Assembly (NCBI RefSeq): GCF_002843425.1
Contig: NZ_NKXO01000003.1
Span: forward strand, 1 to 64,000
From: Raineya orbicola
GTDB lineage: Bacteria > Bacteroidota > Bacteroidia > Cytophagales > Thermonemataceae
DNA: 64,000 bases
Direction of reading: 5' to 3'
The notes under the pieces are model-generated. The model was not told where the DNA came from and searched no databases. It worked only from the letters and a program-made list of their open reading frames with translations. A program made the position numbers and the translations under genes. Below are positions 13,626 to 61,754 of the stretch, one piece after another. Numbering within the stretch: the first letter of the stretch is position 1; each line of letters begins with the position of its first letter.

Positions 13626-14657
13626 TTAATCTTCAAATAAATCGTTTTGTTTAGTAAATTGGCTAATTCCTAAATGTTTATAGGCTTTTTCGGTAGCTTC
13701 TCTACCCCTTGAAGTTCTTTTGATGTAGCCTTCTTGTATTAGGAAAGGTTCATACACTTCTTCAATAGTTTCTGCCTCCTCACCGCAAGCCGTAGCGATA
13801 GTAGTAATACCCACGGGTCCTCCCTTGAACTTATGAATAATGGTTTGCAGAATACGATTATCCATTTCGTCCAGTCCGTTTTTATCTACTTCCAGAGCTT
13901 GTAAAGCTACATCAGCAATAGCCAAATCTATATTGCCATTCCCTTTGACTTGTGCAAAATCACGAATGCGGCGAAGTAAGTTATTAGCAATACGAGGCGT
14001 GCCTCTACTACGGCGGGCAATTTCGTAGGCGGCTTCCTCCTCAATTTTTACACCCAAAATTTTGCAAGAACGCTTGACAATTTGGGTGAGCAAATGAGCA
14101 TCATAATATTGCAGACGAGCATTGATGGCAAATCTGGCTCTCAAAGGGGCTGTCAGCAGACCTGAACGCGTCGTTGCTCCGATGAGCGTAAAAGGATTTA
14201 GCCCTATTTGCACGGTACGAGCATTCGGACCTGAGTCCAGCATTATATCAATTTTGTAATCTTCCATTGCAGAGTACAAATACTCCTCTACAATAGGATT
14301 GAGGCGATGAATCTCATCTATGAAAAGTACATCATTAGAATTGAGTTTTGTGAGCAAACCTGCCAAATCGCTGGGCTTATCTAATACTGGTCCCGAAGTA
14401 GTCATCATTTCTACTCCAAGCTCATTGGCAATGATATTAGAAAGTGTTGTTTTTCCTAATCCGGGCGGTCCGTGTAGAAGGACGTGGTCAAGGGCTTCCT
14501 TGCGTTGTTTGGCGGCAAGTACAAATATACGCAAGTTTTCAACGATTTTTTCTTGCCCTGTAAAATCCTCAAAACTCAAAGGACGCAAAGCCTTTTCTAT
14601 CTCTCTATCCGAAGGCGAAAGTTTTTCTTCCTCACCCGTGAGGTAATCTTTACGCAT
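13626..14657 (-). CDS. ruvB: Holliday junction branch migration helicase RuvB
   Basis: A 343-residue AAA+ motor that forms hexameric rings with RuvA and drives branch migration of Holliday junctions. The N-terminal region [19 protein letters not shown] and GQEKIVENL is typical. Walker A is GPPGLGKTT, Walker [10 protein letters not shown], and sensor and arginine-finger segments [12 protein letters not shown] and PLRARF are present. The winged-helix C-terminus contains [20 protein letters not shown] and [13 protein letters not shown]. Length is standard. It sits 8 bases after the SiaC gene on the same strand, so it appears embedded in a signalling transcript rather than beside ruvA or ruvC. 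Confidence 0.97.
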
Positions 14658-14665
14658 AATTTTTT

Positions 14666-15055
14666 TTACTGCTCTGCAATAATTCTGATATTGAAGGTAA
14701 TATTTTCCAAAAGATCTTGATAATCTTTACCCGCTTCAATCATATCGTCATCAAACTCTTCGCACCACCAGTTTATTTCTACGGCGGCTCCCGATGCTTT
14801 CAGTTGGGCTATTTTTTTGAATACATCAAGCAAACATTTGGAAGAACTTGTGTTGAAATATTCTAATTCTACATCAAGGCTTAAAACTCTTTCAGCCGCT
14901 TGTGCTTTGAAGCGTTCCAGCCAATCGTTGATAGGCGTGTAGAACTCCAAGGGGTTTTCTGGTACAGAACGCCCTTTTATTTCCAACTTTCCTGTATCAG
15001 GATCTAAATGTACAAAGGGAGTATTGAGCGTTTTTTCAATTTTCAAGCTTTCCAT
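14666..15055 (-). CDS. siaC: SiaC-family regulatory phosphoprotein (DUF1987), copy 1
   Basis: A 129-residue small cytoplasmic protein. The family (DUF1987) includes Pseudomonas aeruginosa SiaC, an anti-anti-sigma-like phosphoprotein that is phosphorylated by SiaB and dephosphorylated by SiaA, and there activates the diguanylate cyclase SiaD. Here the motif [10 protein letters not shown] places a Thr at residue 69, matching by position the phosphorylated Thr68 of Sia[10 protein letters not shown] and the acidic [15 protein letters not shown] near the C-terminus also match the family. It follows the kinase gene by 12 bases. No phosphatase or cyclase of the SiaA/SiaD type is adjacent; the paralogous set is at 48-53.7 kb. 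Confidence 0.85.
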
Positions 15056-15067
15056 AAAAAATGCTAT

Positions 15068-15631
15068 TTAAGACGAATGTTCCTGTTTGTTTTCAATTCT
15101 TGGAATTTCTACTTTCAAGGTAAAAAAAGCTAAGTTATCATCTAAATGACTAAACTCATATCGTAAGTTACCCTCCGATTTACGGGCAATATCCACAAAA
15201 CCCAACCCTGCTGTGCCTTTTTCCGAAAAGCCCTCACTACCAAGTATTTGTTTATGGTACTCTCGTAATTCTTCTTTGCTCAAAGAGTTGATATAATCAA
15301 TTTTTTCTTTAATTTTTTGCTCGCTTTGCTTAAAAACATAGTTACCTGTAGCGATAATGTACTTATCCTGATAGGCTTCAAACACAGCAAGCCCTTTCAT
15401 TCCTATTTCTTCACTATGCTTTTCTAAATGATGACTTAAATTCTGATAGCATTCGGTTGCGATATTATAGACTTTTTTGCGAGTTTTAGGGTTTTGTTCG
15501 GCAGTTTCAAGTCTATCTTCAATGATACGAAGCAAAGAATTAATTTGCACAAACCCCACCTGCCCTTTGTAAGACAAGATAAAATTCTCATCTTGCATTT
15601 CATTATACACTTGGCTATAATCTTTTTTCAT
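15068..15631 (-). CDS. siaB: SiaB-family protein kinase, copy 1
   Basis: A 187-residue cytoplasmic kinase of the GHKL/anti-sigma fold. Visible ATP-site motifs: N-box with Glu60 and Asn64 (IATECYQNLSHH) and G-box KGTAGLGFVDIARKS. In Pseudomonas, SiaB phosphorylates SiaC, and the neighbouring DUF1987 gene fits that pairing. The ATG at 15631 is used; a TTG at 15643 gives four more residues. A strong promoter lies 35 bases upstream, so this gene should lead the siaB-siaC-ruvB-permease transcript. It is roughly a third identical by eye to the copy at 52756. Confidence 0.82.
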   Translation of the reverse strand: MKKDYSQVYNEMQDENFILSYKGQVGFVQINSLLRIIEDRLETAEQNPKTRKKVYNIATECYQNLSHHLEKHSEEIGMKGLAVFEAYQDKYIIATGNYVFKQSEQKIKEKIDYINSLSKEELREYHKQILGSEGFSEKGTAGLGFVDIARKSEGNLRYEFSHLDDNLAFFTLKVEIPRIENKQEHSS

Positions 15632-15665
15632 TAGCCTATACAATTTTTGGTGATGGAATTATTGC

Positions 15666-48054: not shown

Positions 48055-48882
48055 ATGAAATCTAAAAGCTACAAAATTTTTGCTTGGGTGGCAACGGCTT
48101 TGTTTGTATTACTTTCAGGCAAATTGTTTTATGATTTTTACACCCTTGATGCACGTATAGTGGAAGAGTTAGAAATCATAGAAATTGCCAAAAAAAGGGT
48201 CTTGGCAAATACTATTCTTATCCCTTTTGTAGCTTTTGGGATAGCCTTTTTTATGGCAATTTTGGCTATTTTGCTTACTAATATCGCAGGTTCAACTCGC
48301 TATGCAGAAGGCATAGTAATAGGGGAAGTAAAAAATGAGAAAAACACGGAGAAAAAAGGACAAACAGATACTCAAAGCACAAGCAAAGGTATGAGCCTTT
48401 CAGCTTTGGGCGAAGTGAATAAAGTTTTAGGAGAATATAATGGCGAGGAGCGTTTAGAACGTATCTTGAGCCTTATCTGCAAAAATTTGGAAGCCGCCCA
48501 AGGAGCAGTGTTTCTGCTTCGCAAAGAAGGTAGAAAGAAATTTTTTAGCTTTCAAGTAGGTTATGCTTATTATTTGGCAGAAAGTCAGAAGTTAGAATAC
48601 GAAGAAGGAGAAGGTTTGGTAGGGCAAGTAGGCAAAGATGGCGTGCCTATTTTGCTCAAAAGCGTTCCCGAAGGCTATATGAAAGTGATTTCGGGTTTAG
48701 GAGAAGCCTCTCCTCGCAGTCTGCTGATAGTGCCTATTTTTGCAAGAAATGGCAAAGATGTAATCGGTATTTTTGAGCTTGCTTCTTTTTCAACTTTTAC
48801 CGAATTACAGAAAAGTTATGTGCAACAAGTGGCTTCCTTGCTTATCGAGCAAATGGAAGAAAGTCTTATTATTACGGCTTAA
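48055..48882 (+). CDS. Membrane protein with cytoplasmic GAF domain
   Basis: A 275-residue protein with two helices (about 9-25 and 53-77) enclosing a 25-residue external loop, a charged linker, and a C-terminal GAF domain (about 125-272): ERLERILSLICKNLEAAQGAVF, GLVGQVGKDGVPILLKSVP, RSLLIVPIFARNGKDVIG. GAF domains bind small ligands or dimerise. The domain matches the GAF of the phosphatase that follows, even in the IxSGLGE-like stretch, so one may derive from the other. Stop to next ATG is 26 bases. It probably senses a signal for the phosphatase. Confidence 0.78.
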   Translation: MKSKSYKIFAWVATALFVLLSGKLFYDFYTLDARIVEELEIIEIAKKRVLANTILIPFVAFGIAFFMAILAILLTNIAGSTRYAEGIVIGEVKNEKNTEKKGQTDTQSTSKGMSLSALGEVNKVLGEYNGEERLERILSLICKNLEAAQGAVFLLRKEGRKKFFSFQVGYAYYLAESQKLEYEEGEGLVGQVGKDGVPILLKSVPEGYMKVISGLGEASPRSLLIVPIFARNGKDVIGIFELASFSTFTELQKSYVQQVASLLIEQMEESLIITA

Positions 48883-48908
48883 AGTAGTTTTTCCAAAATT
48901 TTGTGCGT

Positions 48909-51900
48909 ATGCTCAACTTATTCAAAAAGTTCAAAATTGGTGCAAAGATTTCACTTATCTTACTGCTGGTAGTTCTTTTAGCGGTAGCTTCGGTAAGTTT
49001 TTTTGCCTATAACCAAAGTAAAAACTCCATAGAAGAGCGTTATTTGCAATCTTTGAATGGGGTTGCTGATTTGAAAGTGGAAAAAATCCAAACTTTCATC
49101 AACGAAATCAATGCCGCTGTAAAAGTAGGTAGCGATTTGAAGCCTATCGTGGATTTTCTCAAAAAAATAGATGCCCCCTCCAAGCCAGAAGAAAACAAAG
49201 AAGAAAAAAAGGCTAATGATGATGAGCTTGGAAATATATTTGAGCAAGATGTACAACAATCAGATACCACACAAACAGGACAAGATACTCAGGCTAATCC
49301 TACACCTTCTACAGATTTTGCTATCAATGTAGAACTGGAAAATGCCGTCATTGCTATTCAGTTTGCTTACGAACTCAATAACGTTTATTTGCTGGATAAG
49401 GAAGGTAAAGTAAGGTATATCAGCCGTTCTACCCCCGAACAAACCTTGAACGAAACATTCAAAACACCTCCCATAGACCCTGCTATTGTGGTAAAAGGCA
49501 GAGATACTACTTATTTCAGTAAAGTTTCTTTACAACAACTGGGCAAAGAAAAAAGAACGGTATTTTGGGTATCTGCTCCTATCCGTGATAAAAACGTGAC
49601 GGGGAATCCACTCGTTGGTCAGCTTATCTACGAAGTAGATATGGATAAAGTACAAAAACTCGTTTCCGATAAAGTTGGTTTAGGTGAAACGGGGCAAGTG
49701 TGGCTCTTACAAGAACAAGAAGGACGTTTTGTGTATCTTAATAGTTTCAAAGCAAAAAATAAAGAAATCAAATCATTAGACAAAGCAGGTGAAAAAGAAG
49801 ATGCAGGTACGCCTTTCATTATCCGTAGAGCTTTGGATAAAAATGCTAAACACAGCGAAGCCATTGAAGAAGCAGACTTTTTAGCCGTTTCTCGCTATAT
49901 TCCGGGAGTAGAGTGGGGAATGGTTGTAAAAAACGATAAAGCAGAAATTTACGCTCCTGCGGTGGCTTTGCTCCAAAGGTTTCTCATTGCTGGTGCTGTG
50001 GTAATCGTGATTGCCGTTGTTATTGGGATACTTTTCTCCCAACTCCTCACCCGCCCGCTGGCTGTTTTGCGTAGAACTATCACCTTGCTTGGAAAAGGAG
50101 AACTTCCTCCTGTGGTTACCACCAATAGCCAAGATGAAATCGGTGAAATGACCGAACAAATCAATGCTTTGGTGCAAAACCTTGAAAAAACTGCTAACTT
50201 TGCCCAAGACATCGGTTCGCAGAAATTTGACGTAGATTTCAAACCTTTGAGCGAAAAAGACGTACTCGGAAACGCTTTGATAAACGCCCGTGATAGTTTG
50301 ATTCGCTCCGCCGAAGAAGCCAATATCAATGCTTGGGTGAACGAACGTCTCAACGTAATCAACGACATTTTGCGTACTACCGACAAACTGGAAGTAATGG
50401 CTGAAAAAATCTTGGCTTATGTGGTACGCGAAGTAGGAGCTATTCAAGGAGCTTTTTATGAAATGAAACGAGATGAAAAAGCAGGAACAGAAGAACTTGT
50501 AATGATTGCCAGCCACGCCTACAACAAGAAAAAATATTTAAGTGCTTCCTTCAAAGTTTTCAAAAATCGCTACGCCGAAGGGCTCGTAGGGCAAGCCGCT
50601 ATTGAAAAAGAAGCTATCCGCCGTACTGAAATTCCTGATGATTATGTAACTATTACATCAGGGCTTTTAGGTGAAAAGAAACCTAAATTCTTACATATTT
50701 CTCCTCTCATTACCGCCGATACACGAGAAGTGTATGGAGTTTTAGAAATTGCCGCTTTGGAAGAAATTCCCAAAGGTTCACGCGAAGATGAATTGCTTAC
50801 GCGTATCAGCGATAGTATTGCTCGTACTATCTTCAACATCAAAGTAAGGGAAAGTACCGATTTGCTTTTGAAAGAACAAACTAAACTTACCGAAGAGCTA
50901 CAAGCCAATCAGAAAGAATTGGAAAAAAATGCCAAAGAACTTGCCGATAAAAACAAAGAAGTAGAAAAAGCCAACCAAGAACTCCAAGAACAAATTGAAA
51001 AGGTAAATCAAGAGCAACGCAAAACCCAAGCACTCCTTGAAAACTCATCGGAGGTTATTATTATTTACGACCCCGATAAAACCATTCGCTACGCTTCGCC
51101 TTCCGTAAGAAGAATCTTGGGCTTTGAAGCAGACGATCTTTTAGGAAAAAATGATTGGGATAATATTGAACAAGGAAAAGATGCTTTTGAAAGACTTTTC
51201 CGAGAGTTATTAGAATACCCTGATGAAAGGCACGCTGCCATTGAGTACTTGTACAAAACTGAAAGCGGGCATACCATTTGGATGGAAGCCACAGGTAGCA
51301 ATCTAATTCACGAACCCGCCATTCAAGGCATTGTTATCAATGCTCGTGATATTACAGTTCGTAAAGAAGCTGAACGTGAGCAACGCCTTCGCGGTCAGAT
51401 GCAAGCTCTCTCCGAAAACTCTGCCGACCTTATCTTACGTATGGACAAAGAAGGAACGGTTTATTACGTAAACCCCGTAATTGAAAGCCTTACAGGACAC
51501 CCCAAAGAAGAGTTCTTGCAGAAAAAAATTACTTCCGATTATATCCCTCAAAAAGTTTTGAACGCTTGGTTCAAACTTGTAGAAACCTCGGTAAGAAACA
51601 TCACTCGTGGCGAAGCTAAAGCCAGTGGTGTGGTAGATTTTGAAACCATAGAAGGACGTAAAATTATGAGCGTAAATGCCATTCCTGAAAGGAATGATAT
51701 GGGTGAAATTGAAACTTTCCTTCTCGTTTCACACGATATTACCAAAAGTGAAGAAGACAAAGAAATTATCGCCGCTGCTAATAAGAAAATTACCGACTCT
51801 ATCAATTACGCTAAACGTATCCAAAGTTCTATTTTGCCCGATAGCACTTGGTTACAAAGTGTATTCCCCGATTCTTTCGTGATGTTCAAGCCCAAAGATA

Positions 51901-52583
51901 TTGTAAGTGGTGATTTCCCCTGGATGCTCAAAACGGATAATGGTGTATTTGTGGCAGTAGTGGATTGTACAGGTCACGGTGTTCCCGGTGCCTTGATTTC
52001 ACTGATTGGCTATTTCCTTTTGAACAATATTTTCAGCGTGGAAGAAAATAAAAAGCTCAAACCCAGTGAAATTTTGGATATTCTTGACGAGTCTGTTGTA
52101 CGTACGCTCAGGCAGACCGAAGAAGATGCTATCAGTAAAGACGGTATGGACGTTTCGCTTTGCAAAATCAATTTTGATACAAAAATTTTGGAATACGCAG
52201 GGGCTCACAGACCGCTTTACTATGTAGATACCCACAAGCCCGAAATAGAAGACCCATTAGAAGAAATCAAAGGCGACAAAATGCCTGTGGGTGGTGGGCA
52301 ATATAAAAACAGAGGTGCTTTCGCCAATCACGAAAGACCCTACCAAGAAGGTGATATGATTGTCATTTTCTCGGACGGCTTGCCCGACCAATTCGGCGGA
52401 CCCGATAACCGCAAGTTTTCACCCAAACGTATCAGAGATATTATCAAAGCAAATTTGAATGTGCCTATGATGGCTCTCAATGATGCCCTTGAAAATGAAC
52501 TTAAAATATGGATGCGTTTAGATGATGAAAAAAATGCCACTAAACAAACTGACGATATTTTAGTAATTGGTATACGTTTTTAG
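48909..52583 (+). CDS. Membrane sensor phosphatase with GAF, two PAS and SpoIIE/PP2C domain (SiaA-like)
   Basis: A 1224-residue multi-domain sensor. Helices at about 12-32 and 357-376 enclose an external Cache-like sensor domain. Then follow HAMP (378-430), GAF (477-650), a coiled coil (650-713), two PAS domains (about 708-817 and 830-947), a short DHp-like linker NYAKRIQSSILPD, and a SpoIIE-type PP2C phosphatase (962-1224). Phosphatase metal motifs are clear: PKDIVSGDFPW near 1000, VDCTGHGVPGALISLIG near 1018, FSDGLPDQFGG near 1155 and TDDILVIGIRF at the end. Architecture outside the GAF/PAS insertions mirrors Pseudomonas SiaA (Cache-HAMP-PP2C), the phosphatase for SiaC. ATG at 48909 used instead of GTG at 48903. 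Kinase and phosphoprotein genes follow. Confidence 0.87.
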   Translation: MLNLFKKFKIGAKISLILLLVVLLAVASVSFFAYNQSKNSIEERYLQSLNGVADLKVEKIQTFINEINAAVKVGSDLKPIVDFLKKIDAPSKPEENKEEKKANDDELGNIFEQDVQQSDTTQTGQDTQANPTPSTDFAINVELENAVIAIQFAYELNNVYLLDKEGKVRYISRSTPEQTLNETFKTPPIDPAIVVKGRDTTYFSKVSLQQLGKEKRTVFWVSAPIRDKNVTGNPLVGQLIYEVDMDKVQKLVSDKVGLGETGQVWLLQEQEGRFVYLNSFKAKNKEIKSLDKAGEKEDAGTPFIIRRALDKNAKHSEAIEEADFLAVSRYIPGVEWGMVVKNDKAEIYAPAVALLQRFLIAGAVVIVIAVVIGILFSQLLTRPLAVLRRTITLLGKGELPPVVTTNSQDEIGEMTEQINALVQNLEKTANFAQDIGSQKFDVDFKPLSEKDVLGNALINARDSLIRSAEEANINAWVNERLNVINDILRTTDKLEVMAEKILAYVVREVGAIQGAFYEMKRDEKAGTEELVMIASHAYNKKKYLSASFKVFKNRYAEGLVGQAAIEKEAIRRTEIPDDYVTITSGLLGEKKPKFLHISPLITADTREVYGVLEIAALEEIPKGSREDELLTRISDSIARTIFNIKVRESTDLLLKEQTKLTEELQANQKELEKNAKELADKNKEVEKANQELQEQIEKVNQEQRKTQALLENSSEVIIIYDPDKTIRYASPSVRRILGFEADDLLGKNDWDNIEQGKDAFERLFRELLEYPDERHAAIEYLYKTESGHTIWMEATGSNLIHEPAIQGIVINARDITVRKEAEREQRLRGQMQALSENSADLILRMDKEGTVYYVNPVIESLTGHPKEEFLQKKITSDYIPQKVLNAWFKLVETSVRNITRGEAKASGVVDFETIEGRKIMSVNAIPERNDMGEIETFLLVSHDITKSEEDKEIIAAANKKITDSINYAKRIQSSILPDSTWLQSVFPDSFVMFKPKDIVSGDFPWMLKTDNGVFVAVVDCTGHGVPGALISLIGYFLLNNIFSVEENKKLKPSEILDILDESVVRTLRQTEEDAISKDGMDVSLCKINFDTKILEYAGAHRPLYYVDTHKPEIEDPLEEIKGDKMPVGGGQYKNRGAFANHERPYQEGDMIVIFSDGLPDQFGGPDNRKFSPKRIRDIIKANLNVPMMALNDALENELKIWMRLDDEKNATKQTDDILVIGIRF

Positions 52584-52755
52584 ATAAAATACATAGAAAA
52601 AAGCAAAAGATATAGAGTATTTAAGACTTCAAACTCTCAAACTTTGGACTTTTTCAAACAATTTTTAGGAAAGTTTTTTGTTTTCAGAAAAATATTTAAC
52701 TTACAGCAAAATTTTCAAAATAAAGCATAGTAACCATCAAAAATAGTTAAGCTAT

Positions 52756-53307
52756 ATGAAATATGTTTATGAACTGCACAAAACAATGATTGCCAATAAT
52801 CTGATTTTGGTATATGAAGGGGAATTTACCCAAGATATTACCAAATCCATTTTGGCAATGGCAGAAAGAAATATGGACGCTATTGGCGAACTGGGGGGGG
52901 TAAAAAGAAAGGTTTTCAGTGTAATGGTGGAATGTTTGCAAAATATTGTGAAACACTCCGAAGAACTCAACGAAAAAGATGAAGATGGCTTGAAAAACAA
53001 TGCTATTTTTATGCTTGGAAAGCAAATCAACGAATATATCGTTACTTCGGGTAACCCTATTCGTAATGCCGCTATTCCTTCGGTACAAGCTAAAATTGAA
53101 AGAGTAAATTCTTTGGATAAAGACGGCTTGAAAGACCTCTACAAAGAAATTATCAAAAACACTGAAATTTCTGATAAAGGCGGGGCTGGTTTGGGCTTTG
53201 TAGATATGGCAAGAAAATCAGGGGAGAAATTAGGGTATAGTTTTGAACCTATCAATGATGAATATTCTTTTTTTGCCTTGAAAATCATTGTTCCTCGTAG
53301 TGAATAA
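52756..53307 (+). CDS. siaB: SiaB-family protein kinase, copy 2
   Basis: A 183-residue cytoplasmic kinase with the GHKL ATP pocket: N-box Glu59/Asn63 in MVECLQNIVKHSE and G-box KGGAGLGFVDMARKSG. It lies between the SpoIIE phosphatase and the SiaC gene, the order siaA-siaB-siaC of Pseudomonas. Residues 46-49 (ELGGV) are coded by an uninterrupted run of eight Gs (52893-52900), odd for an AT-rich genome. A one-base slip there would stop translation early, so this gene could be phase-variable. The other copy (15068) has no such run. Confidence 0.83.
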   Translation: MKYVYELHKTMIANNLILVYEGEFTQDITKSILAMAERNMDAIGELGGVKRKVFSVMVECLQNIVKHSEELNEKDEDGLKNNAIFMLGKQINEYIVTSGNPIRNAAIPSVQAKIERVNSLDKDGLKDLYKEIIKNTEISDKGGAGLGFVDMARKSGEKLGYSFEPINDEYSFFALKIIVPRSE

Positions 53308-53354
53308 ATTATTTTTCCCTCAAAGTTAAACATACAAAAATTTGTGATATAGTT

Positions 53355-53720
53355 ATGGAAATCATCAATTTAGAAGGGACCGAAGAAACACCCAAAGTGA
53401 TTTTGGATAAAGATAATGGTATATTTGAAATTTCGGGACGCTCACTGCCTGAAGATGTAAGAACTTTCTATCAGCAAGTTTTAGATTGGCTTGATAAATA
53501 TGCCGCCGCACCCAATCCCGAAACTAAATTTACTTTCAAACTTGAATACTTCAATACAGCCTCTTCCAAAGTTATTCTTGATGTATTGACTAAACTGGAA
53601 GGCATCAGTGGGGCGAAAGTAATTTGGTATCATCACGATGACGACGAGGATATGGAAGAAGCTGGCAAAGAGTTTCAAGATATTGTAGATGGATTGCCTT
53701 TTGAATTCAAAACCTACTAA
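53355..53720 (+). CDS. siaC: SiaC-family regulatory phosphoprotein (DUF1987), copy 2
   Basis: A 121-residue partner protein. LEYFNTASSK puts a Thr at residue 68, the same number as the phosphorylated Thr68 of Pseudomonas SiaC. EISGRSLPEDVRTFYQQVLDWL and the acidic YHHDDDEDMEEAGKEFQDI match the other copy (14666). It should be the switch protein set by the kinase at 52756 and the phosphatase at 48909. What it controls here is unknown, since no diguanylate cyclase (GGDEF) gene is present. It ends at a strong terminator. Confidence 0.86.
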   Translation: MEIINLEGTEETPKVILDKDNGIFEISGRSLPEDVRTFYQQVLDWLDKYAAAPNPETKFTFKLEYFNTASSKVILDVLTKLEGISGAKVIWYHHDDDEDMEEAGKEFQDIVDGLPFEFKTY

Positions 53721-53726
53721 ACCGCT

Positions 53727-53760
53727 ACCTTATAGGCTTTTAGAAGCCTATAAGGTTTTC
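53727..53760 (+). terminator. Strong terminator closing the sia operon
   Basis: ACCTTATAGGCTT (53727-53739) and AAGCCTATAAGGT (53744-53756) form a perfect 13-base stem with a TTAG loop, followed by TTTTC. It separates siaC from the ABC transporter gene. Confidence 0.85.
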
Positions 53761-53833
53761 TGATTAGAACCTTTTTATCGTTTTTTCTCAATCCCTAATT
53801 CTATTTATTACTTTGCTATAATTTTTTGCATAT

Positions 53834-56800
53834 ATGAGCGAAGCTGTACTCGATGCCCTCACCAAAGTTTTTGCTATTACTATTTTACAAGATGGCGGAG
53901 TTTCTCCCAAAGAAGAAAATTTTGTAGCTGAATACTTCCAAGAGGTTTTAGCCCAAGATTCCATTCCCGCTTATATGCAAAAATATAAAGAATATTACCA
54001 AAAATTGTGGAACGACTTTGGTGCAAGAGTAAGCGAAAACGAAAAAGAATCTTTGCCCGGTGAAGAAGAAACTGGTAGTAAAAAAGTAACCGACGAAGAA
54101 AGGGCTTTTCAGAAATTTTCTGTAAAACTCGGTGGTCTTTTCCGCAAAGAAATCGCTCCCGAAAAAGAAAGTCGCTTGGTTTTAAGCCAAAAAATCCTCA
54201 TTGTAGTACGAATGTTGGAACTTTTGGCTTCAGATAATCGTGTAACCAAAAGACGTTTAGAAGTAGTATCCACTTCTGCTGATTATCTGCTAAAAAACGA
54301 AATACTCTACAAAATTATTTATGATTTCGTTTTCAAGAAAGCAGATGAATTGGTAGGTAACGAAAATATACTCACGGTTAGCTCGCTTTATATCCCTCGT
54401 ACCAATACTATTAAACACATTCAGATAGAAAGATTAGACGGAGAACTTATATTTTTGCGTATGCCCGAAGCCAATATGTATTTTGTGAAATACACGGGTA
54501 GTGAAAATATCAAGCTCAACGACTTCTTGATGAAGCCCAACAAAATTTATCAGTTTACTTCGGGAAGTATCATCAGAACACAAGCAGGTAATTCTTTCTA
54601 TTTCAGCGATATTGTTGCTAACTTTACTGATGTTCAGAAAAAACAAAAACTTTCTTTCAATGCCATAGATATTGAATACAAGTTCAAAAATGGTAATTTG
54701 GGTTTGCGTGGTGTAAGTGTAGCTGAAAGTGCAGGAAACCTCATTGGCATTATGGGAGCAAGTGGGGCTGGGAAAACTACCCTGCTCAATGTTTTGGCTG
54801 GTCTTGAAACGCCTTCGCGTGGGCAAGTTCTGCTGAATGGTATTGATATTCACAGAGAAAAAGAGAAAGTACAGGGAGTTATCGGCTATGTAGCCCAAGA
54901 TGATTTACTTATTGAAGAACTCACTGTTTATCAGAACCTTTACTACAATACCAAACTTTGTTTCAAAAGTTTTACCGAGAAAGAACTGCACGAGCGAGTA
55001 ATGAAAACCCTTGAAGACTTGGGGCTTGCTCATATCAAAGATTTAAAAGTTGGAAATGTTCTCAATAAAACTATTAGCGGCGGGCAACGCAAACGCCTCA
55101 ATATTGCTTTGGAACTCATACGTGAGCCTGCTGTCCTTTTTCTTGATGAACCAACCTCAGGACTTTCGTCCAAAGACTCCGAAAACGTCCTTGACCTTCT
55201 CAAAGAGCTTTCTGCCAAAGGAAAACTGATTTTTGTTGTAATTCACCAGCCTTCCTCCGATATTTTCAAAATGTTCAATAAACTGATTATTTTGGATACA
55301 GGAGGCTATCAGGCTTTTTATGGAAACCCTGTTGATGCCGTTATTTATTTCAAGAAACAAGATAACCAGCTCAAAGCCGAAGAAGGACAATGCCCCAACT
55401 GCGGTAATGTAAATCCTGAACAAATTTTCGATATTATTGAGGCTCGTACCATTGACGAAAACGGACAATATACCAACCAACGCAAAAAAACGCCTATTCA
55501 ATGGAATGAGTTATTTTTGAAAAATTTTAGCGATAAAATTCGCCCCGTAGAAGAGCAAAAAGAAGTACCCCCTAAGGCTTTGGATTTGCCTCATTGGACA
55601 AAGCAAACTATTCTTTTTACCATTCGCGACTTTCTGGCAAAAGCAGGTAATACGCAATATATGGCTATCAACCTTTTAGAAGCCCCCCTACTTGCTTTTT
55701 TACTTGCTTTTATTATACGTTTCAACAACGACCCGCTTACCTTGGGGTATAGCTATCGCTACAACGACAATATCCCTGCTTATATCCTGATTTGCGTGCT
55801 GGTGGCTCTTTTTATGGGACTTACCGTAAGTGCCGAAGAAATTATCAAAGACCGAAAAATTCAACGCCGAGAATCTTTCCTCAATTTGAGTAGGCACAGC
55901 TACCTACTCTCTAAACTGATTATTCTGTTCGGACTTTCTGCCATTCAAACGCTTACTTTTGTACTCATTGGTAATGCTATTCTGGAAGTGAAAGGTATGA
56001 ATATGATGTATTGGGCTGTGCTTTTCACGGTTTCTTGCTTTGCCAATATGCTCGGCTTAAATATCTCGGCTACTTTCAATTCCGTTGTAACCATTTACAT
56101 TACCATTCCGCTACTACTTATTCCACAAATGATTTTGAGTGGTGTAATTTTCAATTTTGATAAGCTCAATCAATTTGTAAGTGATAGAGGGCAAGTGCCT
56201 CTCCTTGCCGACCTTATGGTGTCGCGTTGGGGATTTGAAGCCATCGCCGTTGAGCAGTTCAAAAATAACAAATTTCAAAAGCCATTTTTTGAGTATGAAA
56301 AAGAAATAAGTGTAGCAGATTTCCGACAATTATGGCTTGATGAACTCGGCAATGCTCGTGTAAGGCTTTCTAAAATTTTGGATAAAAATTCCGATTCTTT
56401 GAACAATGTAAAAACTGCCGAACTCAAACTTATTGCCTATGAATTGCAAAGAGAAAAAGCCTTTGACCTAAAAACCCAGTATGGCAAAGAAAATCGCCCT
56501 GCTTTCAAAGATTTTGATAACCTACTTGCCAAACTCAATATCAATACCTACAACGAAAAGGTTGAGGAAGAACTTAAAAGCTATTTAGAAGAACTTGCTG
56601 AATATTACAAGGCTCGTAGAAATTATTTCAGCCGTGAAAAAAATGACTTGGAAGATAGGTTAGAGGAAAAAGTGAAGGGCTATTCTTTGGAAAAATACAA
56701 AAACACCTACTTTAACGAAAGTCTATCCGATTTGGCTCGGAATGCCAATGTGAGAGATAAAATTTTGCTTTACAAAGAAAAACTCTTGCAACAAGCCGAC

Positions 56801-57040
56801 CCAATTTTCCAAGAGCCTCTGCTCCCTGCACATATTTTAGATTACAGAACGCAATTTCTTGCTCCTTCCAAGCATTTTGCAGGTATGCTCATCAATACCT
56901 ACTATTTTGATATAATCGTAATCTGGCTGTTTTCGTTGGTACTGTACATTACCCTATATTATGAAACCTTCAAAAAAGCTCTCTCTTTATCTATTTTTGG
57001 CTTTTTCAAAAAAACAGAAAAAAACAAAACAAAAAAATGA
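53834..57040 (+). CDS. Fusion: TerB-like domain, beta domain, ABCG-type ATPase and permease
   Basis: A 1068-residue fusion. Residues 1-190: helical, TerB-like (DALTKVFAITILQDGGVSPKEE). Residues 200-285: beta-rich (IFLRMPEANMYFVKYTGSE, FTSGSIIRTQAG), where FHA domains sit in other ABCG fusions (e.g. mycobacterial Rv1747), but without clear FHA phospho-binding residues. ATPase: Walker A GASGAGKTT (309-316), signature ISGGQRKRLN, Walker B VLFLDEPTSGLSS. Then a CPNC zinc-knuckle-like pair (near 519-522) and NVNPEQIFDIIEA. The permease has five to six helices (612-775 and 1026-1047) separated by a long soluble coiled region. Exported lipid or peptide unknown. It is a single-chain half-transporter, presumably dimeric. 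A protein kinase gene lies 3.5 kb downstream. Confidence 0.82.
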   Translation: MSEAVLDALTKVFAITILQDGGVSPKEENFVAEYFQEVLAQDSIPAYMQKYKEYYQKLWNDFGARVSENEKESLPGEEETGSKKVTDEERAFQKFSVKLGGLFRKEIAPEKESRLVLSQKILIVVRMLELLASDNRVTKRRLEVVSTSADYLLKNEILYKIIYDFVFKKADELVGNENILTVSSLYIPRTNTIKHIQIERLDGELIFLRMPEANMYFVKYTGSENIKLNDFLMKPNKIYQFTSGSIIRTQAGNSFYFSDIVANFTDVQKKQKLSFNAIDIEYKFKNGNLGLRGVSVAESAGNLIGIMGASGAGKTTLLNVLAGLETPSRGQVLLNGIDIHREKEKVQGVIGYVAQDDLLIEELTVYQNLYYNTKLCFKSFTEKELHERVMKTLEDLGLAHIKDLKVGNVLNKTISGGQRKRLNIALELIREPAVLFLDEPTSGLSSKDSENVLDLLKELSAKGKLIFVVIHQPSSDIFKMFNKLIILDTGGYQAFYGNPVDAVIYFKKQDNQLKAEEGQCPNCGNVNPEQIFDIIEARTIDENGQYTNQRKKTPIQWNELFLKNFSDKIRPVEEQKEVPPKALDLPHWTKQTILFTIRDFLAKAGNTQYMAINLLEAPLLAFLLAFIIRFNNDPLTLGYSYRYNDNIPAYILICVLVALFMGLTVSAEEIIKDRKIQRRESFLNLSRHSYLLSKLIILFGLSAIQTLTFVLIGNAILEVKGMNMMYWAVLFTVSCFANMLGLNISATFNSVVTIYITIPLLLIPQMILSGVIFNFDKLNQFVSDRGQVPLLADLMVSRWGFEAIAVEQFKNNKFQKPFFEYEKEISVADFRQLWLDELGNARVRLSKILDKNSDSLNNVKTAELKLIAYELQREKAFDLKTQYGKENRPAFKDFDNLLAKLNINTYNEKVEEELKSYLEELAEYYKARRNYFSREKNDLEDRLEEKVKGYSLEKYKNTYFNESLSDLARNANVRDKILLYKEKLLQQADPIFQEPLLPAHILDYRTQFLAPSKHFAGMLINTYYFDIIVIWLFSLVLYITLYYETFKKALSLSIFGFFKKTEKNKTKK

Positions 57041-57057
57041 AAATTTTTCAGGGAATG

Positions 57058-57089
57058 TTTGAAATTTTAGAAAAAACTACTTTATTTTG
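57058..57089 (+). promoter_or_regulatory. Probable promoter of the 57146 lipoprotein gene
   Basis: TTTG (57058-57061), a 20-base spacer, TTATTTTG (57082-57089), one mismatch to TAnnTTTG. It lies 57 bases before the ATG at 57146. Confidence 0.42.
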
Positions 57090-57145
57090 AACTGAAATTC
57101 TTGTTTTGGCAAAATTCATACCCCAAATTAAAACGTGTAAATTTT

Positions 57146-58045
57146 ATGAAAAAAGTAATTTATAGCCTTCTGACTTTTACTTTCATAGCTATTACAGCTT
57201 GTGATAATAGTGATGATATTAACAAAGTAGCAAGCGATACAACTAAAAAAGTAAAGTCAGGGAAAGAAGCTATTGATAAAAAAACTATCAAAGAATTTGT
57301 AGATAGAATCCCCAGTCCTATGATTATCTCTTCCATCATCAAAGATAGTGGGATTGATTACGACCAAACTCTGCTCAATTCAGTAGATAATGAATCTAAA
57401 TATGTGATTGAGTTTAAGCAAGCTCTCAATCTTGGTGTTTTCAGTACAGATTTGGGTTATGCTAATATCTACGAAAAGTCGCAAGATGCTATCAATCTGC
57501 TTGTAGGGGTTAAAGATATGGCTGATAATCTTAAAATCGGTCAGTATTTTGAATTTGAAAAAATTAAGCAACTCTCTAAAAGTAAAGACAAACTTGATGA
57601 ACTCTTGCAACTTACCGAAGAGAATCTTATCAATATCAATAATAAATTGTATGAGCAAGATAGAAGCGATTTGACTGTGCTTATCATTACAGGAGGTTGG
57701 GTAGAAGTAATGTATCTTGCTACACAAGTGGTACAGAAAAAAGCAAACAAAGATCTGGAACAAATGATTGCTGAACAGAAAATTGTTCTTGACCAAATCG
57801 TGCAGTTATTAGATTACTATGCCAGCCAATCTAAAATGAGAGATCTGCACGATGAACTCGTAGATTTGCAAAAATCTTTTGAAAAAATCAAATTCACCAA
57901 GAGCGAAGGTGAAACCAAACAAGAAGAAAAAGAAAACACAGTAGTAGTACAGCAAGGTGGTAGCGAGCAGGCTGAAATAAGTAAAGAAACACTTAATGAA
58001 ATTACAACAAAAATCGCCGCCATTCGCAATAAAATCGTTAGCTAA
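57146..58045 (+). CDS. Lipoprotein of unknown function, family A copy 1
   Basis: A 299-residue lipoprotein with signal MKKVIYSLLTFTFIAITAC. The mature part is mainly helical. Family blocks: IPSPMIISSIIKDSGIDYDQTLLN, ALNLGVFSTDLGYANIYEKSQ, LIITGGWVEVMYLATQVV and the C-terminus IAAIRNKIVS. A low-complexity, Gln/Glu/Val-rich stretch (about 255-275) precedes the end. It is paralogous to 58747-59589. Bacteroidota genomes carry many such lipoproteins, none with a known role that I can name. ATG at 57146 begins the signal peptide; 15 upstream codons are ignored. Confidence 0.78.
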   Translation: MKKVIYSLLTFTFIAITACDNSDDINKVASDTTKKVKSGKEAIDKKTIKEFVDRIPSPMIISSIIKDSGIDYDQTLLNSVDNESKYVIEFKQALNLGVFSTDLGYANIYEKSQDAINLLVGVKDMADNLKIGQYFEFEKIKQLSKSKDKLDELLQLTEENLININNKLYEQDRSDLTVLIITGGWVEVMYLATQVVQKKANKDLEQMIAEQKIVLDQIVQLLDYYASQSKMRDLHDELVDLQKSFEKIKFTKSEGETKQEEKENTVVVQQGGSEQAEISKETLNEITTKIAAIRNKIVS

Positions 58046-58057
58046 AATTTTTACATC

Positions 58058-58092
58058 AGAGGGTTCAAAGGTATTAGTTTTTTGAACCCTCT
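58058..58092 (+). terminator. Hairpin between family A and B genes (terminator or attenuator)
   Basis: AGAGGGTTCAAA (58058-58069) and TTTGAACCCTCT (58081-58092) are a perfect 12-base inverted repeat with an 11-base loop. A strict T-run does not follow; the next bases are ATACCCTTTTG. It may stop, process or protect the transcript. No promoter of the usual type is visible between it and the next gene. Confidence 0.65.
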
Positions 58093-58131
58093 ATACCCTT
58101 TTGACAAGCTCAACAATCAACTTGAAAATTT

Positions 58132-58731
58132 ATGAAAAAACTATTGATAGCTTTTGTTTTTATAGGGGGAATGTTGGGAAAAAGTTTAGCTCAACAGAAA
58201 ACGACCACTACTCCACAAAATACCAAAACCGAGCAAAAAACAGGTACGCAAACTCAAAAAACCACAAAAACTCAGCCTGACCCTAAAAAACAACAACCAG
58301 AAACTAAAAAAGAAGAGAAAAAAGAAATAAAAAAAGAGGTAAAAAAAGAAATAAATCCTCGTATTGAAAATTGTAATCCCGCTGGCTACATCACTGATAT
58401 TACTGAATCCCTTAAAGCATCGGGATTTAAGTTTTTGAGAAGTTATAAATTGGAAGGGGTTTCTAATAAACCCATACAACACGAATATACCTTTAGTAAG
58501 GGTACTACCTATACTATCAGAGTAGCATCTTATTTGGATAGCAGATTAAAAGTTATTTTATACGATCCCGAAGGTAGAGCCATAGCTTCAACTTACAATG
58601 CTGACTCCGATAAGTTTTATCCTTCTATCCAAATACAATGCAACAAAACAGGTGTCTATAAAATTTCTTTCGAACACCACTTTAATAAAAGAGATTTCTG
58701 TGGTGGAGCAATATTAGCTTTCAAACGTTAA
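58132..58731 (+). CDS. Secreted protein of unknown function, family B copy 1
   Basis: A 199-residue exported protein with signal peptide MKKLLIAFVFIGGML and cleavage after SLAQ. A long low-complexity linker rich in Thr, Gln, Lys and Glu (about 22-75) leads to a beta-sandwich-like domain (80-199). Domain marks: SLKASGFKFLRSYKLEG, TYTIRVASYLDSRLKVILYD, IQIQCNKTGVYKISFE and the end RDFCGGAILAFKR. Two cysteines could form a disulfide. It shares the domain with 59676-60098 but that copy lacks the linker. 15 bases separate it from the next lipoprotein gene. Confidence 0.75.
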   Translation: MKKLLIAFVFIGGMLGKSLAQQKTTTTPQNTKTEQKTGTQTQKTTKTQPDPKKQQPETKKEEKKEIKKEVKKEINPRIENCNPAGYITDITESLKASGFKFLRSYKLEGVSNKPIQHEYTFSKGTTYTIRVASYLDSRLKVILYDPEGRAIASTYNADSDKFYPSIQIQCNKTGVYKISFEHHFNKRDFCGGAILAFKR

Positions 58732-58746
58732 AAAAAATAAATTTTT

Positions 58747-59589
58747 ATGAAAAAAATCTTTTGGCTTCCTATGTCTGCTATCATTTTGATGGCTTGCCCC
58801 AAAAGCGATAATGAACAAAAGCCTACACAAGACACTACTCAAAAGCAAACTAACACCAAAACAGAGTTCAAAACAGATTATGAACTTTTGAATGCAATGC
58901 CGAACCCTATTGAAATGACTGACCTTATCAAAAGTTCAGGGATAGAATATGACAATAGTCTGCTGAATAAACCCGAAAATATTGAAAAATACAATGCCGA
59001 ACACCAAATAGCTCTAAATTTAGGCGTGTATAGCGTAGATTTGGGTTATGCCAATCTGCACAACAAAACCCAAGATGCTATCAGGTTTTTAGATGCTACT
59101 CGCAAAATGGCAGAAGGCTTGAAAGTCGCTCAATTTTTTGATTTTGAAAAAATCAAAAAAATTACCCAAGAAAGCAAAGATATGAACGAGCTTATTCTTA
59201 CCACTGGGCTGGGGCTTACGGCTATGCGTCAGAAATTAGAGGAAGAAAAACGTGGTGAAGTGCTAACATTGATGGTAATTGGAGGCTGGGTAGAATCTTT
59301 GTATTTGGCTACCCAAGTTGCCGAAAAAGCTAATAAACCTGCTCTAAATGAAAAAATTGCAGACCAAAAATTCGTGGTTGAAGCCATTTTGAAAGAATTA
59401 GAGCCCAACAAATCCGTTTCCAAACACATTGAAAGTCTCTACAACGATTTACAGAAAATTGGTGAAAGCTATAAAAACATTAGCGTGGAACCCCAAGAAG
59501 GCAAACCCGCTAAGGTAAATATGAGCAAAGATGACTTTCAAAAGCTCTCACAAGCACTCAAAGAAGTCAGAGGGCGTATTGTAAGTTAA
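58747..59589 (+). CDS. Lipoprotein of unknown function, family A copy 2
   Basis: A 280-residue lipoprotein (signal MKKIFWLPMSAIILMAC) paralogous to the gene at 57146. The same blocks recur: MPNPIEMTDLIKSSGIEYDNSLLN, ALNLGVYSVDLGYANLHNKTQ, MVIGGWVESLYLATQVAEKA and the end EVRGRIVS. A Thr/Gln/Lys-rich linker (20-40) follows the Cys. It lies 15 bases after family B copy 1, so the two genes are transcribed together. Confidence 0.78.
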   Translation: MKKIFWLPMSAIILMACPKSDNEQKPTQDTTQKQTNTKTEFKTDYELLNAMPNPIEMTDLIKSSGIEYDNSLLNKPENIEKYNAEHQIALNLGVYSVDLGYANLHNKTQDAIRFLDATRKMAEGLKVAQFFDFEKIKKITQESKDMNELILTTGLGLTAMRQKLEEEKRGEVLTLMVIGGWVESLYLATQVAEKANKPALNEKIADQKFVVEAILKELEPNKSVSKHIESLYNDLQKIGESYKNISVEPQEGKPAKVNMSKDDFQKLSQALKEVRGRIVS

Positions 59590-59607
59590 AAATTATAGCC
59601 TAATATA

Positions 59608-59638
59608 TTGACAACTATTATATTTTTTATTACTTTTG
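59608..59638 (+). promoter_or_regulatory. Promoter of family B copy 2
   Basis: TTG (59608-59610), a 20-base spacer and TACTTTTG (59631-59638), about 38 bases before the ATG at 59676. So copy 2 of family B can be expressed alone. Confidence 0.6.
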
Positions 59639-59675
59639 AAATCAAAACCAGAACTCTCAAAAAATCAACACATAT

Positions 59676-60098
59676 ATGAAAAAAGTATTATTTTTACTCC
59701 TCGCTTTTAGCTTCGCATATCTTGCAAATGCTCAATGTGATGTAACTGAATACACCAACAAATGTGCTGAACGCCTTAAACCTGATGGCTTCAAGTATCT
59801 CAAAAGCTACAAATTAGATTTTATGAATGGTAGCAAAAAGCAAATTATTTACTCCTATGTATTCAGTAATAACACAAGCTATCGTATCACGCTTGCCAAT
59901 GGAAATAATAAAGGACTTTTTGTAACCTTAATGGATTCTGAGAAAAAGCCAGTAGCAAGTAGCTATCTTGAAAAAGAAAAGAAATATATGCCTGCTATTG
60001 ATATAAAATGCTCACGTACAGGTATCTATTATTTAGCTTATGAAGTGAAAGAAGGTAAAGATTACTGCGGTTCAAGTGTTATTGGCTTCAAAAGATAA
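59676..60098 (+). CDS. Small secreted protein, family B copy 2
   Basis: A 140-residue exported protein with signal peptide MKKVLFLLLAFSFAYLANAQ and no linker. The mature domain starts CDVTEYTNKCAE and shows ERLKPDGFKYLKSYKLDF, TSYRITLANGNNKGLFVTLM, IDIKCSRTGIYYLAYE and KDYCGSSVIGFKR, the same layout as family B copy 1. Four cysteines could form two disulfides. Predicted soluble periplasmic or extracellular. Its own promoter precedes it and a terminator follows. Confidence 0.77.
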   Translation: MKKVLFLLLAFSFAYLANAQCDVTEYTNKCAERLKPDGFKYLKSYKLDFMNGSKKQIIYSYVFSNNTSYRITLANGNNKGLFVTLMDSEKKPVASSYLEKEKKYMPAIDIKCSRTGIYYLAYEVKEGKDYCGSSVIGFKR

Positions 60099-60120
60099 AA
60101 TATTTCAATAAGTTTTTTTA

Positions 60121-60162
60121 ATAGTTGTGTTGGCTTATGCAAGCACAACTATTGTTTTTTTT
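60121..60162 (+). terminator. Rho-independent terminator after family B copy 2
   Basis: ATAGTTGTG (60121-60129) pairs with CACAACTAT (60144-60152); the inner TTG/CAA can extend the stem. TGTTTTTTTT follows. Confidence 0.85.
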
Positions 60163-60182
60163 ACAACCTAATTTCATTTTTT

Positions 60183-60593
60183 ATGCGTACTTTATCTAAT
60201 GTTTTCGGAACTATTTCTAATATTGCTTTTACCATACTTTTGATAGCCTTCGTTTTGAAAAATTTTCAAAGCCTTTCTGCTGAAACCTTCAAAACACTTT
60301 CTCTGATTGCTTGGGCTTCATTGGCTTTTGCCTCCTTTATAGAAGGGTTTTTATTTGTTGGTAAAAATAAACTTGCGGTCATTTTAGCGGGCTTGAGTGT
60401 TTCGGCAACGGCTATTTTTATACTTTCTAAAATTATGAGTTGGCAGGGCTTTGAAAAGTTAGAATATGCTCCATATACTGCTATCGGAGCAGGAGTTATA
60501 CTCTTAATTGCTCAAAAAAAGTTATCTAATATAGGGACAAAGGCTTTAATTGTTGGAACAATCGGTATTCTAATAGTTACAGGAAAATTGTGA
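60183..60593 (+). CDS. Four-helix membrane protein, unknown function
   Basis: A 136-residue protein of four predicted transmembrane helices (about 10-30, 40-60, 63-83 and 95-133 with a loop) and short connecting loops. A VLKNFQSLSAETFKTLS stretch faces one side. I do not recognise the family. It is six bases before the kinase gene on the same strand, so it probably forms an operon with it and could be its membrane partner or substrate. Confidence 0.7.
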   Translation: MRTLSNVFGTISNIAFTILLIAFVLKNFQSLSAETFKTLSLIAWASLAFASFIEGFLFVGKNKLAVILAGLSVSATAIFILSKIMSWQGFEKLEYAPYTAIGAGVILLIAQKKLSNIGTKALIVGTIGILIVTGKL

Positions 60594-60599
60594 AGGCGT

Positions 60600-61754
60600 A
60601 TGCTCAAAGGCGAAATTATCAACGGCTATGTAATTTTGCAAGATTTTACTACCGCAGGAGGCGGACTAAGTAAATGGACTTTCGCTCGTAAAGGAGAAAA
60701 GGAGTATTTTATCAAAGAATTCCTTTCACCCAAGTACCCTACCGAAACTTCGCCGGGTAGCCCCAAATCCAAGGAACGTAAAAAGCAAGAATGTGAAAAG
60801 TTTGAAAATCACCACAAAAACCTAATGAAACAAATCAATGAGCGTTGTGGTGTGGGAGGAAATTTAGTAGTTACACTTGATTTTTTCAGAGTAGGAAGTA
60901 CTTACTATAAAGTAACGGAAAAAATTGATGTTGCTTCACTTTCCCCCAAAGAAATCTATGCCCTTCCTTTGCCAAATAAAATTCTGATACTTAAAACCAT
61001 AGCTCACAGCCTTAATATTTTACACAAAGCGGGGATTGTTCACGGCGATTTGAAGCCCGAAAATGTACTTATCAAGCAAACTCGTCTGAATTATTATACC
61101 ACCAAACTCATTGATTTTGATAATAGCTATTTTTCAGGCAACCCTCCCGAGCTGAGCGAAGAAGTAGTGGGTGATATGGTTTTTTACTCTCCCGAACTTG
61201 CTCGCTATATTCAGGGGAAAGAAAATCCCGAAAAACTAACTACTCAATCTGATATTTTTGCTTTGGGTTTGCTGTATTGCATCTTTTTACAAGGCGAACT
61301 CCCCGATTTCCCCAAAAAATATGCTTATCCTTGCCTTGCTGTAAATGAAGGGAAAGAGCTTAAACTCATTGATGCCAAATTGCCCAAAAAGCTAAAAAAA
61401 ATGGTAAATGCAATGCTTGCCCCCTCTCCTACCGAACGCCCCACCGCAGAAGAAATCTTTGAAACCCTCAAAAATCTTGATTTGAAAGATGATGATGAAC
61501 TTGTAAAAGTTCCTGAAAGAAAGTCTTTTGTAGAAACTTACTGGGAAGAAAAAGAAAAAAAAGAAGCTGAAAGTAAGAGTTCCAAACTAAAAATGACATT
61601 CAGCAAGAAAAAAGAAAAAACTACCGAAGAAACCGAAGCCTCCCTTGAACTTGAAATGAAAAAATTTGAAGAAGCTATGAAAATTATAGATGAAATGACT
61701 GGAGTATCTGAAAGCAAGCTACGAGGCAAAGGACTAAAAATTGGAAAGAAATAA
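60600..61754 (+). CDS. Serine/threonine protein kinase with degenerate DFG (DFD)
   Basis: A 384-residue cytoplasmic eukaryotic-like kinase. Subdomain II lysine is in YFIKEF (Lys39); the Gly-rich loop is TTAGGGLSKW, which departs from GxGxxG. The catalytic loop is HGDLKPENV (148-156) with Asp150 and Asn155. The metal motif is D172-F-D174 instead of DFG. SPE at 197-199 replaces APE. QSDIFALGLL is the later DxxxxG segment. The C-terminus (from about 310) is a long Lys/Glu-rich charged region, cytoplasmic and without a membrane helix. A 27-residue insertion (PKYPTETSPGSPKSKERKK) follows Lys39. Activity is likely but not assured. Confidence 0.82.
   Translation: MLKGEIINGYVILQDFTTAGGGLSKWTFARKGEKEYFIKEFLSPKYPTETSPGSPKSKERKKQECEKFENHHKNLMKQINERCGVGGNLVVTLDFFRVGSTYYKVTEKIDVASLSPKEIYALPLPNKILILKTIAHSLNILHKAGIVHGDLKPENVLIKQTRLNYYTTKLIDFDNSYFSGNPPELSEEVVGDMVFYSPELARYIQGKENPEKLTTQSDIFALGLLYCIFLQGELPDFPKKYAYPCLAVNEGKELKLIDAKLPKKLKKMVNAMLAPSPTERPTAEEIFETLKNLDLKDDDELVKVPERKSFVETYWEEKEKKEAESKSSKLKMTFSKKKEKTTEETEASLELEMKKFEEAMKIIDEMTGVSESKLRGKGLKIGKK

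Follow-up and report, generated by a model that had tools for sequence, protein, structure and literature searches.

Partner switching of the SpoIIE/RsbU type combines a PP2C phosphatase, a GHKL-like kinase and a STAS-like phosphoprotein, and in the Sia system of Pseudomonas the genes follow the order siaA-siaB-siaC-output, the sole known output of SiaC being, to our knowledge, the diguanylate cyclase SiaD. In MlaFB, a STAS protein is bound to an ATP-binding cassette (ABC) ATPase, which makes the association of a STAS-like protein with an ABC transporter plausible; we know of no role for MlaB as a Thr-phosphorylation switch. Here we describe a locus at positions 48055-61754 of a 64,000-nucleotide stretch of the Raineya orbicola genome (contig NZ_NKXO01000003.1, positions 1 to 64,000; hereafter, the window), where homologs of siaA, siaB and siaC, in that order, are followed by the gene of an ABCG-type transporter. 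We propose, with a probability of about 0.6, that this locus encodes a SiaABC phosphorylation switch that has an ABC export complex as its output, in place of the diguanylate cyclase.

The likeness to SiaABCD of Pseudomonas aeruginosa encompasses all three regulators, with SiaA as a PP2C phosphatase, SiaB as a kinase and SiaC as a protein phosphorylated on Thr (PMC8457831 and PMC7647112, in the parts of their text available). In contrast to SiaABCD, there is no SiaD here, and the position of the output gene is occupied by ABCG with its lipoprotein and secreted partners; furthermore, siaA is preceded by a gene for a GAF protein, to which CheR and CheB are usually added in relatives, and the equivalent of S69 in SiaC is Ala. 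The locus differs from SpoIIE/RsbU partner switching in that no sigma or anti-sigma factor is found among the cluster genes of the window, and from MlaFB in the family of the transporter. In the available part of PMC8457831, DUF1987, the SiaC domain, is related to STAS and described as widespread, and such proteins are suggested to modulate adjacent proteins, with no second target named there. Our searches of the open-licence literature listed no report on a sia-ABCG cluster; in the parts available, PMC9239204 cites only SiaABCD of Pseudomonas, and the "SiaC" of PMC11885536 is an unrelated Capnocytophaga sialidase.

Linkage of sia and ABCG genes across the Cytophagales

We surveyed 148 Cytophagales genomes and a phylum sample of 198 Bacteroidota genomes. 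Sampling of ABCG loci began after three adjacent pairs had been seen in the match lists, all in a single family (f21), and represents each of the 52 matching genera by one or more matches, with extra copies in addition. The 80 further regions fetched, together with the window, make up 81 loci in 61 genomes, a subset of the 91 genomes with an ABCG match. The profiles used in the later survey were built from the window and the fetched sequences, and the counts depend on them; all counts of SiaC, ABCG and lipoprotein profile matches in the 148 genomes are among the matches listed.

In 43 of the 61 genomes, representing 37 of 52 genera and 13 of 16 families, siaC or siaB lies directly upstream of ABCG on the same strand, with a median siaC-ABCG gap of 131.5 bp in the linked loci. 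This is a lower bound, given that only copies distant from the cluster were fetched from one genome (G097), and it is well above a generous random-placement bound that takes genomes as independent. The linked loci also share their flanks: among 44 linked rows (43 loci, the split ABCG gene of L058 being counted as two rows), a lipoprotein gene follows ABCG in 38 and a secreted protein gene in 36, and among the 37 linked loci with more than 9 kb of upstream sequence, SiaB is present in all 37, SiaA in 35, and a relative of the GAF protein (<400 aa, same strand) in 32. An earlier note, made from the sequence alone, had assigned the sia genes, the transporter, the lipoproteins and the kinase to a single locus and suggested searching for their adjacency in relatives, where a lack of linkage would speak against a common pathway. 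The search bears out the larger part of this proposal, with the sia genes and the transporter-lipoprotein-secreted protein set forming one conserved cluster, and leaves the kinase and the four-transmembrane (4-TM) protein outside it. In five loci of family f15 (L057, L066, L070, L076 and L096), two or three lipoprotein copies lie downstream of ABCG.

Profile matches yield a similar picture at the level of whole genomes: the N-terminal profile of ABCG matches 91 of the 148 Cytophagales genomes, the lipoprotein family profile 92 and SiaC 95, with SiaC and ABCG together in 89 genomes, SiaC alone in 6, ABCG alone in 2, and neither in 51 (Fisher p = 2.6e-30, uncorrected for ancestry). In the phylum sample, the ABCG profile matches 17 of 198 genomes, strongly in five (four Cytophagales and G192), the other 12 matches being weak and short.

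The joint retention of these genes has to be weighed against the possibility that the neighbourhood was simply inherited without a shared pathway, its order preserved by chance or because it suits transcription. Among unlabelled families of flanking genes, the most frequent one reaches only 10 of the 42 linked loci, in 5 families, so that the sia-ABCG block is not simply general synteny. In trees from quick maximum-likelihood searches (no bootstrap; support from the Shimodaira-Hasegawa-like approximate likelihood ratio test, SH-aLRT), all 42 linked rows among 85 ABCG proteins fall within one clade of 48 rows (SH-aLRT 100; L094, at <900 aa, was excluded), and none of the 31 remaining Cytophagales rows outside that clade is linked. 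Likewise, 41 linked SiaB-SiaC pairs make up one clade (SH-aLRT 91), separate from two GGDEF-linked pairs and from other copies. The simplest reading of these trees would be one joining event followed by co-inheritance with few separations. Such a single origin is consistent with vertical inheritance, and regulators and transporter may be transcribed separately (see below), both of which would suit a neighbourhood without a common function; we nevertheless consider that explanation improbable, because the gene order extends over 13 families as opposed to 5 for the top flanking gene, other ABCG copies lack the linkage altogether, and the linkage far exceeds the random-placement bound. Altogether, gene order makes co-function of the sia genes and the transporter appear well supported.

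The transporter set is also found as an independent unit. Four Bacteroidales loci (L016-L019) carry lipoprotein-secreted protein-ABCG sets, and two Fulvivirga loci (L014 and L015) carry lipoprotein-ABCG sets, with an ABCG homologous to that of the window (44-46% identity) and a homologous lipoprotein as well. No SiaA, SiaB, SiaC, GAF, CheR or CheB match was found in the fetched flanks of these six loci, which are short in L014 and L017. From these loci we gained a first impression that the transporter set was an unrelated neighbour of the sia genes, which the order-wide survey overturned. In L111 (G192:C32), from another order of the same class, SiaB-SiaC is convergent with lipoprotein-secreted protein-ABCG, that is, adjacent but not co-directed.

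Gene content and transcription of the window locus

All 11 genes read in the earlier note are present at 48055-61754, on one strand, and Pfam and NCBIfam confirmed the GAF, SiaA-like, SiaB, SiaC, ABCG and kinase assignments. Together with a hairpin, the features are the following:

48055-48882, + strand: GAF-domain membrane protein, 275 aa (GAF_2, E = 4.2e-12; two predicted membrane segments)
48903-52583, + strand: SiaA-like sensor phosphatase, 1226 aa (two membrane segments, HAMP, two PAS, PP2C (SpoIIE) E = 6.7e-17)
52756-53307, + strand: SiaB kinase (DUF6272, E = 4.2e-44; SiaB family, E = 6.3e-53)
53355-53720, + strand: SiaC phosphoprotein (PF09345, E = 3.1e-39; Thr equivalent to T68, in NTAS)
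53727-53756, + strand: stable hairpin, terminator- or attenuator-like, 13 pairs, between siaC and ABCG
53834-57040, + strand: ABCG-type half transporter (TerB-like N-terminus, ATPase E = 4.9e-33, ABC2_membrane E = 2.5e-15, large loop in the membrane domain)
57146-58045, + strand: lipoprotein 1 (family profile)
58132-58731, + strand: secreted protein 1
58747-59589, + strand: lipoprotein 2 (38% identical to lipoprotein 1)
59676-60098, + strand: secreted protein 2
60183-60593, + strand: 4-TM protein, a lineage-restricted addition (profile matches, predicted membrane segments)
60600-61754, + strand: Ser/Thr kinase, a lineage-restricted addition (PF00069 Pkinase, E = 5.8e-23)

The three Sia proteins match the models of their families and score below the cut-offs for equivalogs. 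SiaA matches the SiaA model with E = 4.3e-52 and a score of 177.5, far under the equivalog cut-off of 700, and aligns with structure 6k4e (E = 3.3e-22); a GAF stretch in it is sub-threshold (26.6 against a Pfam cut-off of 28.6 bits). SiaB exceeds the family cut-off (178.9 against 85) and falls short of the equivalog one (80.1 against 225), and SiaC behaves in the same way (133.8 against 24.5 for PF09345; 69.5 against 150 for the equivalog); they align with chains 6kko_A (E = 6.7e-13) and 6kko_C (E = 1.1e-11), respectively.

The transporter has its ATPase followed by an ABC2 membrane domain on one chain, the arrangement that defines the ABCG type, and its best NCBIfam match is a pigment precursor permease (263.3, under the cut-off of 736.35). 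The TerB-ABCG fusion that had been read from the sequence is borne out at the level of the N-terminal family, where five of seven members match TerB (best E = 4.2e-13), but not in the window protein itself, which has no TerB match; an FHA-like part is merely hinted at (E = 0.55 to the MEK1 FHA domain). The closest named relatives of the transporter are from an uncultured Cytophagales bacterium (95%) and Raineya sp. (94% over the compared part). For the lipoprotein, an AlphaFold model from 9 sequences is mostly helical, with a predicted local distance difference test score (pLDDT) of 73.4. The best E value in a Foldseek search was only 0.2 and the best VIA-align Z was 6.8; an imelysin/EfeO-like fold was considered (Z 4.3-5.7, root-mean-square deviation 7-10 Å) and, being tied with unrelated helical rows, was dropped, so that no fold is assigned.

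The strong terminator previously proposed after siaC is a stable hairpin indeed (-19.8 kcal/mol, z = -5.6), but its T tract is weak. A simple terminator scan showed no overall excess (11 sites compared with 12.1 in shuffles). Among siaC-ABCG gaps 25 bases or longer, 28 of 40 contain a hairpin of -12 kcal/mol or lower, where 15 shuffles gave 9.7 on average and 13 at most; between siaB and siaC (2 of 31 gaps) and between siaA and siaB (1 of 34), such hairpins show no excess over shuffles. Conservation of the hairpin at this one junction suggests that the regulators and the transporter probably form separate or attenuated transcripts, which restricts the use of the word operon and leaves the linkage untouched.

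The output of the switch

The earlier note had found no GGDEF gene at the locus and left the transporter, the kinase or something new as candidate outputs, with strict co-occurrence of SiaC and a distant GGDEF protein as the finding that would count against this view. The GGDEF profile has no match in the entire R. orbicola genome, which has 7 SiaC and 5 SiaB matches, and matches only one of the 148 Cytophagales genomes (G030), which itself lacks a SiaC match; accordingly, none of the 95 SiaC-bearing genomes has a GGDEF match. In the phylum sample, SiaC is present in 13 of 198 genomes, four from Cytophagales and nine from outside, and eight of these nine are GGDEF-positive, three with 8 or 9 matches each and five with one lower-scoring match apiece; the exception is G192. 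Among 12 SiaC loci outside Cytophagales (L108-L119), two (L108 and L110) run SiaA-SiaB-SiaC-GGDEF, as in Pseudomonas, and the remaining ten have no GGDEF gene among the neighbours displayed. By comparison with L108 and L110, ABCG stands in the slot of the cyclase. A hidden GGDEF output was thus rejected, and although very diverged members can escape profiles, a diverged or unannotated nucleotide cyclase that replaces SiaD and was missed appears highly unlikely, considering that the same profile matches 8 of 14 control genomes and most of the SiaC-bearing genomes outside the order.

The switch itself seems intact. The Thr68 equivalent is kept in 43 of 43 linked SiaC proteins, the catalytic Glu in 42 of 42 linked SiaB copies, and the metal-binding aspartates of the PP2C motif in 39 of 39 linked SiaA proteins; SiaC of the locus thus carries the Thr at which phosphorylation is predicted. 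Its order-wide position beside a transporter rather than a cyclase suggests that the transporter is under control of the switch, and the conserved adjacency, with one ABCG clade and one SiaBC clade, singles out the transporter among the outputs considered earlier.

The face of SiaC that could mediate such control shows signs of a change of partner. According to the available part of PMC8457831, SiaC grips the stalk of SiaD through the face around Thr68, and phosphorylation prevents binding. Of the 14 SiaD-contact positions taken from that part, 12 are fixed in the ABCG-linked clade, while across the whole alignment 54 of 112 columns are (p = 0.003). All 43 linked proteins have Ala at position 69, whereas 40 other copies have Ser in 36 cases and Ala in 3, with Ser in both GGDEF-linked ones. 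These patterns fit a face that still holds one conserved partner, yet a different one, and are suggestive only, because SiaB and SiaA also act on the Thr. On the transporter side, it is in the TerB-like part that the clade differs most, on average, from other copies (mean divergence 0.284), a pattern that is again only suggestive.

For direct SiaC-ABCG contact, the docking site, the direction of regulation, the substrate and the signal, we infer a scheme along the following lines. SiaA, as a membrane phosphatase, and the GAF protein, joined in most linked relatives by CheR and CheB, would sense an envelope or metabolic cue; SiaB would phosphorylate SiaC at the conserved Thr, and SiaA would remove the phosphate. 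Unphosphorylated SiaC might then dock on the cytoplasmic TerB-like N-terminus of ABCG, via the face that holds SiaD in Pseudomonas, and set the activity of the transporter, which would work together with the adjoining lipoprotein and secreted protein. If this is true, a Ser/Thr phosphoswitch would act directly on an ABC transporter, the locus would supply one concrete SiaC target in an order nearly devoid of GGDEF cyclases, and a role would be assigned to a transporter that is so far uncharacterised and has conserved partners, the lipoprotein and the secreted protein.

Several observations weigh against the transporter as the output. Shared ancestry confounds the co-occurrence of SiaC and ABCG, six of the 48 rows in the ABCG clade are unlinked (one of them, L074, at a contig edge), and the hairpin in the siaC-ABCG gaps implies that the two parts may be transcribed separately. 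At the docking face, the test of switched columns is weak, with contacts making up 5 of 16 fixed-and-switched columns (p = 0.03), contact positions taken together are no more diverged than the rest (Mann-Whitney p = 0.32), and one of the three other SiaC copies with Ala69 comes from R. orbicola itself. The predicted ABCG model (pLDDT 53.9, predicted template modelling score 0.31) was left unused. Finally, other SiaBC pairs of R. orbicola adjoin the unrelated genes FtsX, RuvB and VWA, so neighbours are not always outputs.

These last contexts, along with the hairpin and the 6 genomes that have SiaC and no ABCG profile match, would be expected if the SiaC target were encoded elsewhere and the transporter served as a sensor or feedback arm through which SiaA reads the state of transport or of the envelope. 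We regard this arrangement as unlikely, though less so than the alternatives above, given that the SiaB-SiaC pairs linked to ABCG form a clade apart from the remaining copies and that ABCG fills the slot of the GGDEF gene. One cell may host several SiaC outputs.

The other SiaC copies stand in varied settings. A second SiaB-SiaC pair of the window (13629-15643, - strand) has a RuvB-like gene directly after it (named by motifs). Elsewhere in the genome, SiaC copies at L023 6315-8229 (G000:C2), L025 7339-9339 (G000:C8), L026 6782-7711 (G000:C12), L024 and L027 are found beside FtsX, beside a VWA protein, downstream of genes for a PP2C protein and a sigma-factor-like protein, or without SiaB. SiaB and SiaC share a single open frame of 321-347 residues in L136, L142, L143 and L144; the frame beside SiaC at 8777 of L115 (G302), 625 residues long, matches both SiaB and the PP2C phosphatase; and two genomes, G047 and G102, each have at least 27 SiaC matches.

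CheR and CheB, the Ser/Thr kinase and neighbouring genes

Upstream in most linked relatives, usually preceding the sia genes, are CheR (30 of the 37 linked loci with >9 kb upstream) and CheB (29 of 37), neither of which had been recorded in the earlier note; 38 unlinked ABCG loci have no CheB match. CheR-CheB is absent from the clusters of the window, L030 and L033, and the single CheR match of the R. orbicola genome pairs with CheB on another contig (L148 1282-2737, G000:C75), scoring 485 and 352 bits to the cluster profiles. Both proteins were checked with Pfam in L039 and L148. With regard to the marks of a chemosensory pathway, CheR and CheB do stand beside receptor genes in relatives. MCPsignal, the domain of methyl-accepting chemotaxis protein (MCP) receptors, has no match in the R. 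orbicola genome and is likewise unmatched in 16 of the 32 genomes where CheR belongs to the cluster, suggesting that the CheR substrate is probably not a classical receptor, and the usual MCP methylation consensus occurs in 1 of 39 SiaA and 0 of 34 GAF proteins. A broader model, which we put forward tentatively as the less probable extension of the transporter-output reading, is one of order-wide envelope control, in which a Thr switch, adjusted through CheR/CheB-type methylation of a non-MCP sensor phosphatase, would directly gate an ABC exporter through the same slot and docking face.

The Ser/Thr kinase ends the row of co-directed genes in the window and contains a kinase domain, making it a conceivable output or second regulator of SiaC. 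Among 108 sequences (the window and L001-L107), strong kinase and 4-TM matches are limited to the window, L013/L030 (taken as one) and L020, with one weak kinase match in L045. Within the fetched flanks, linked loci from other families show no kinase gene next to the cluster, and L033, a locus from the same genus, has neither the kinase nor the 4-TM gene there. By these comparisons, the two genes are a local, lineage-restricted addition outside the conserved cluster; on this ground the kinase was dismissed as the output of the switch, and a part for it in SiaC regulation is very improbable.

A gene recurring near the cluster in a minority of the relatives encodes a hydrolase-like protein of 214 residues (named by a motif; L100 2810-3451), with relatives in 10 linked loci from 5 families.

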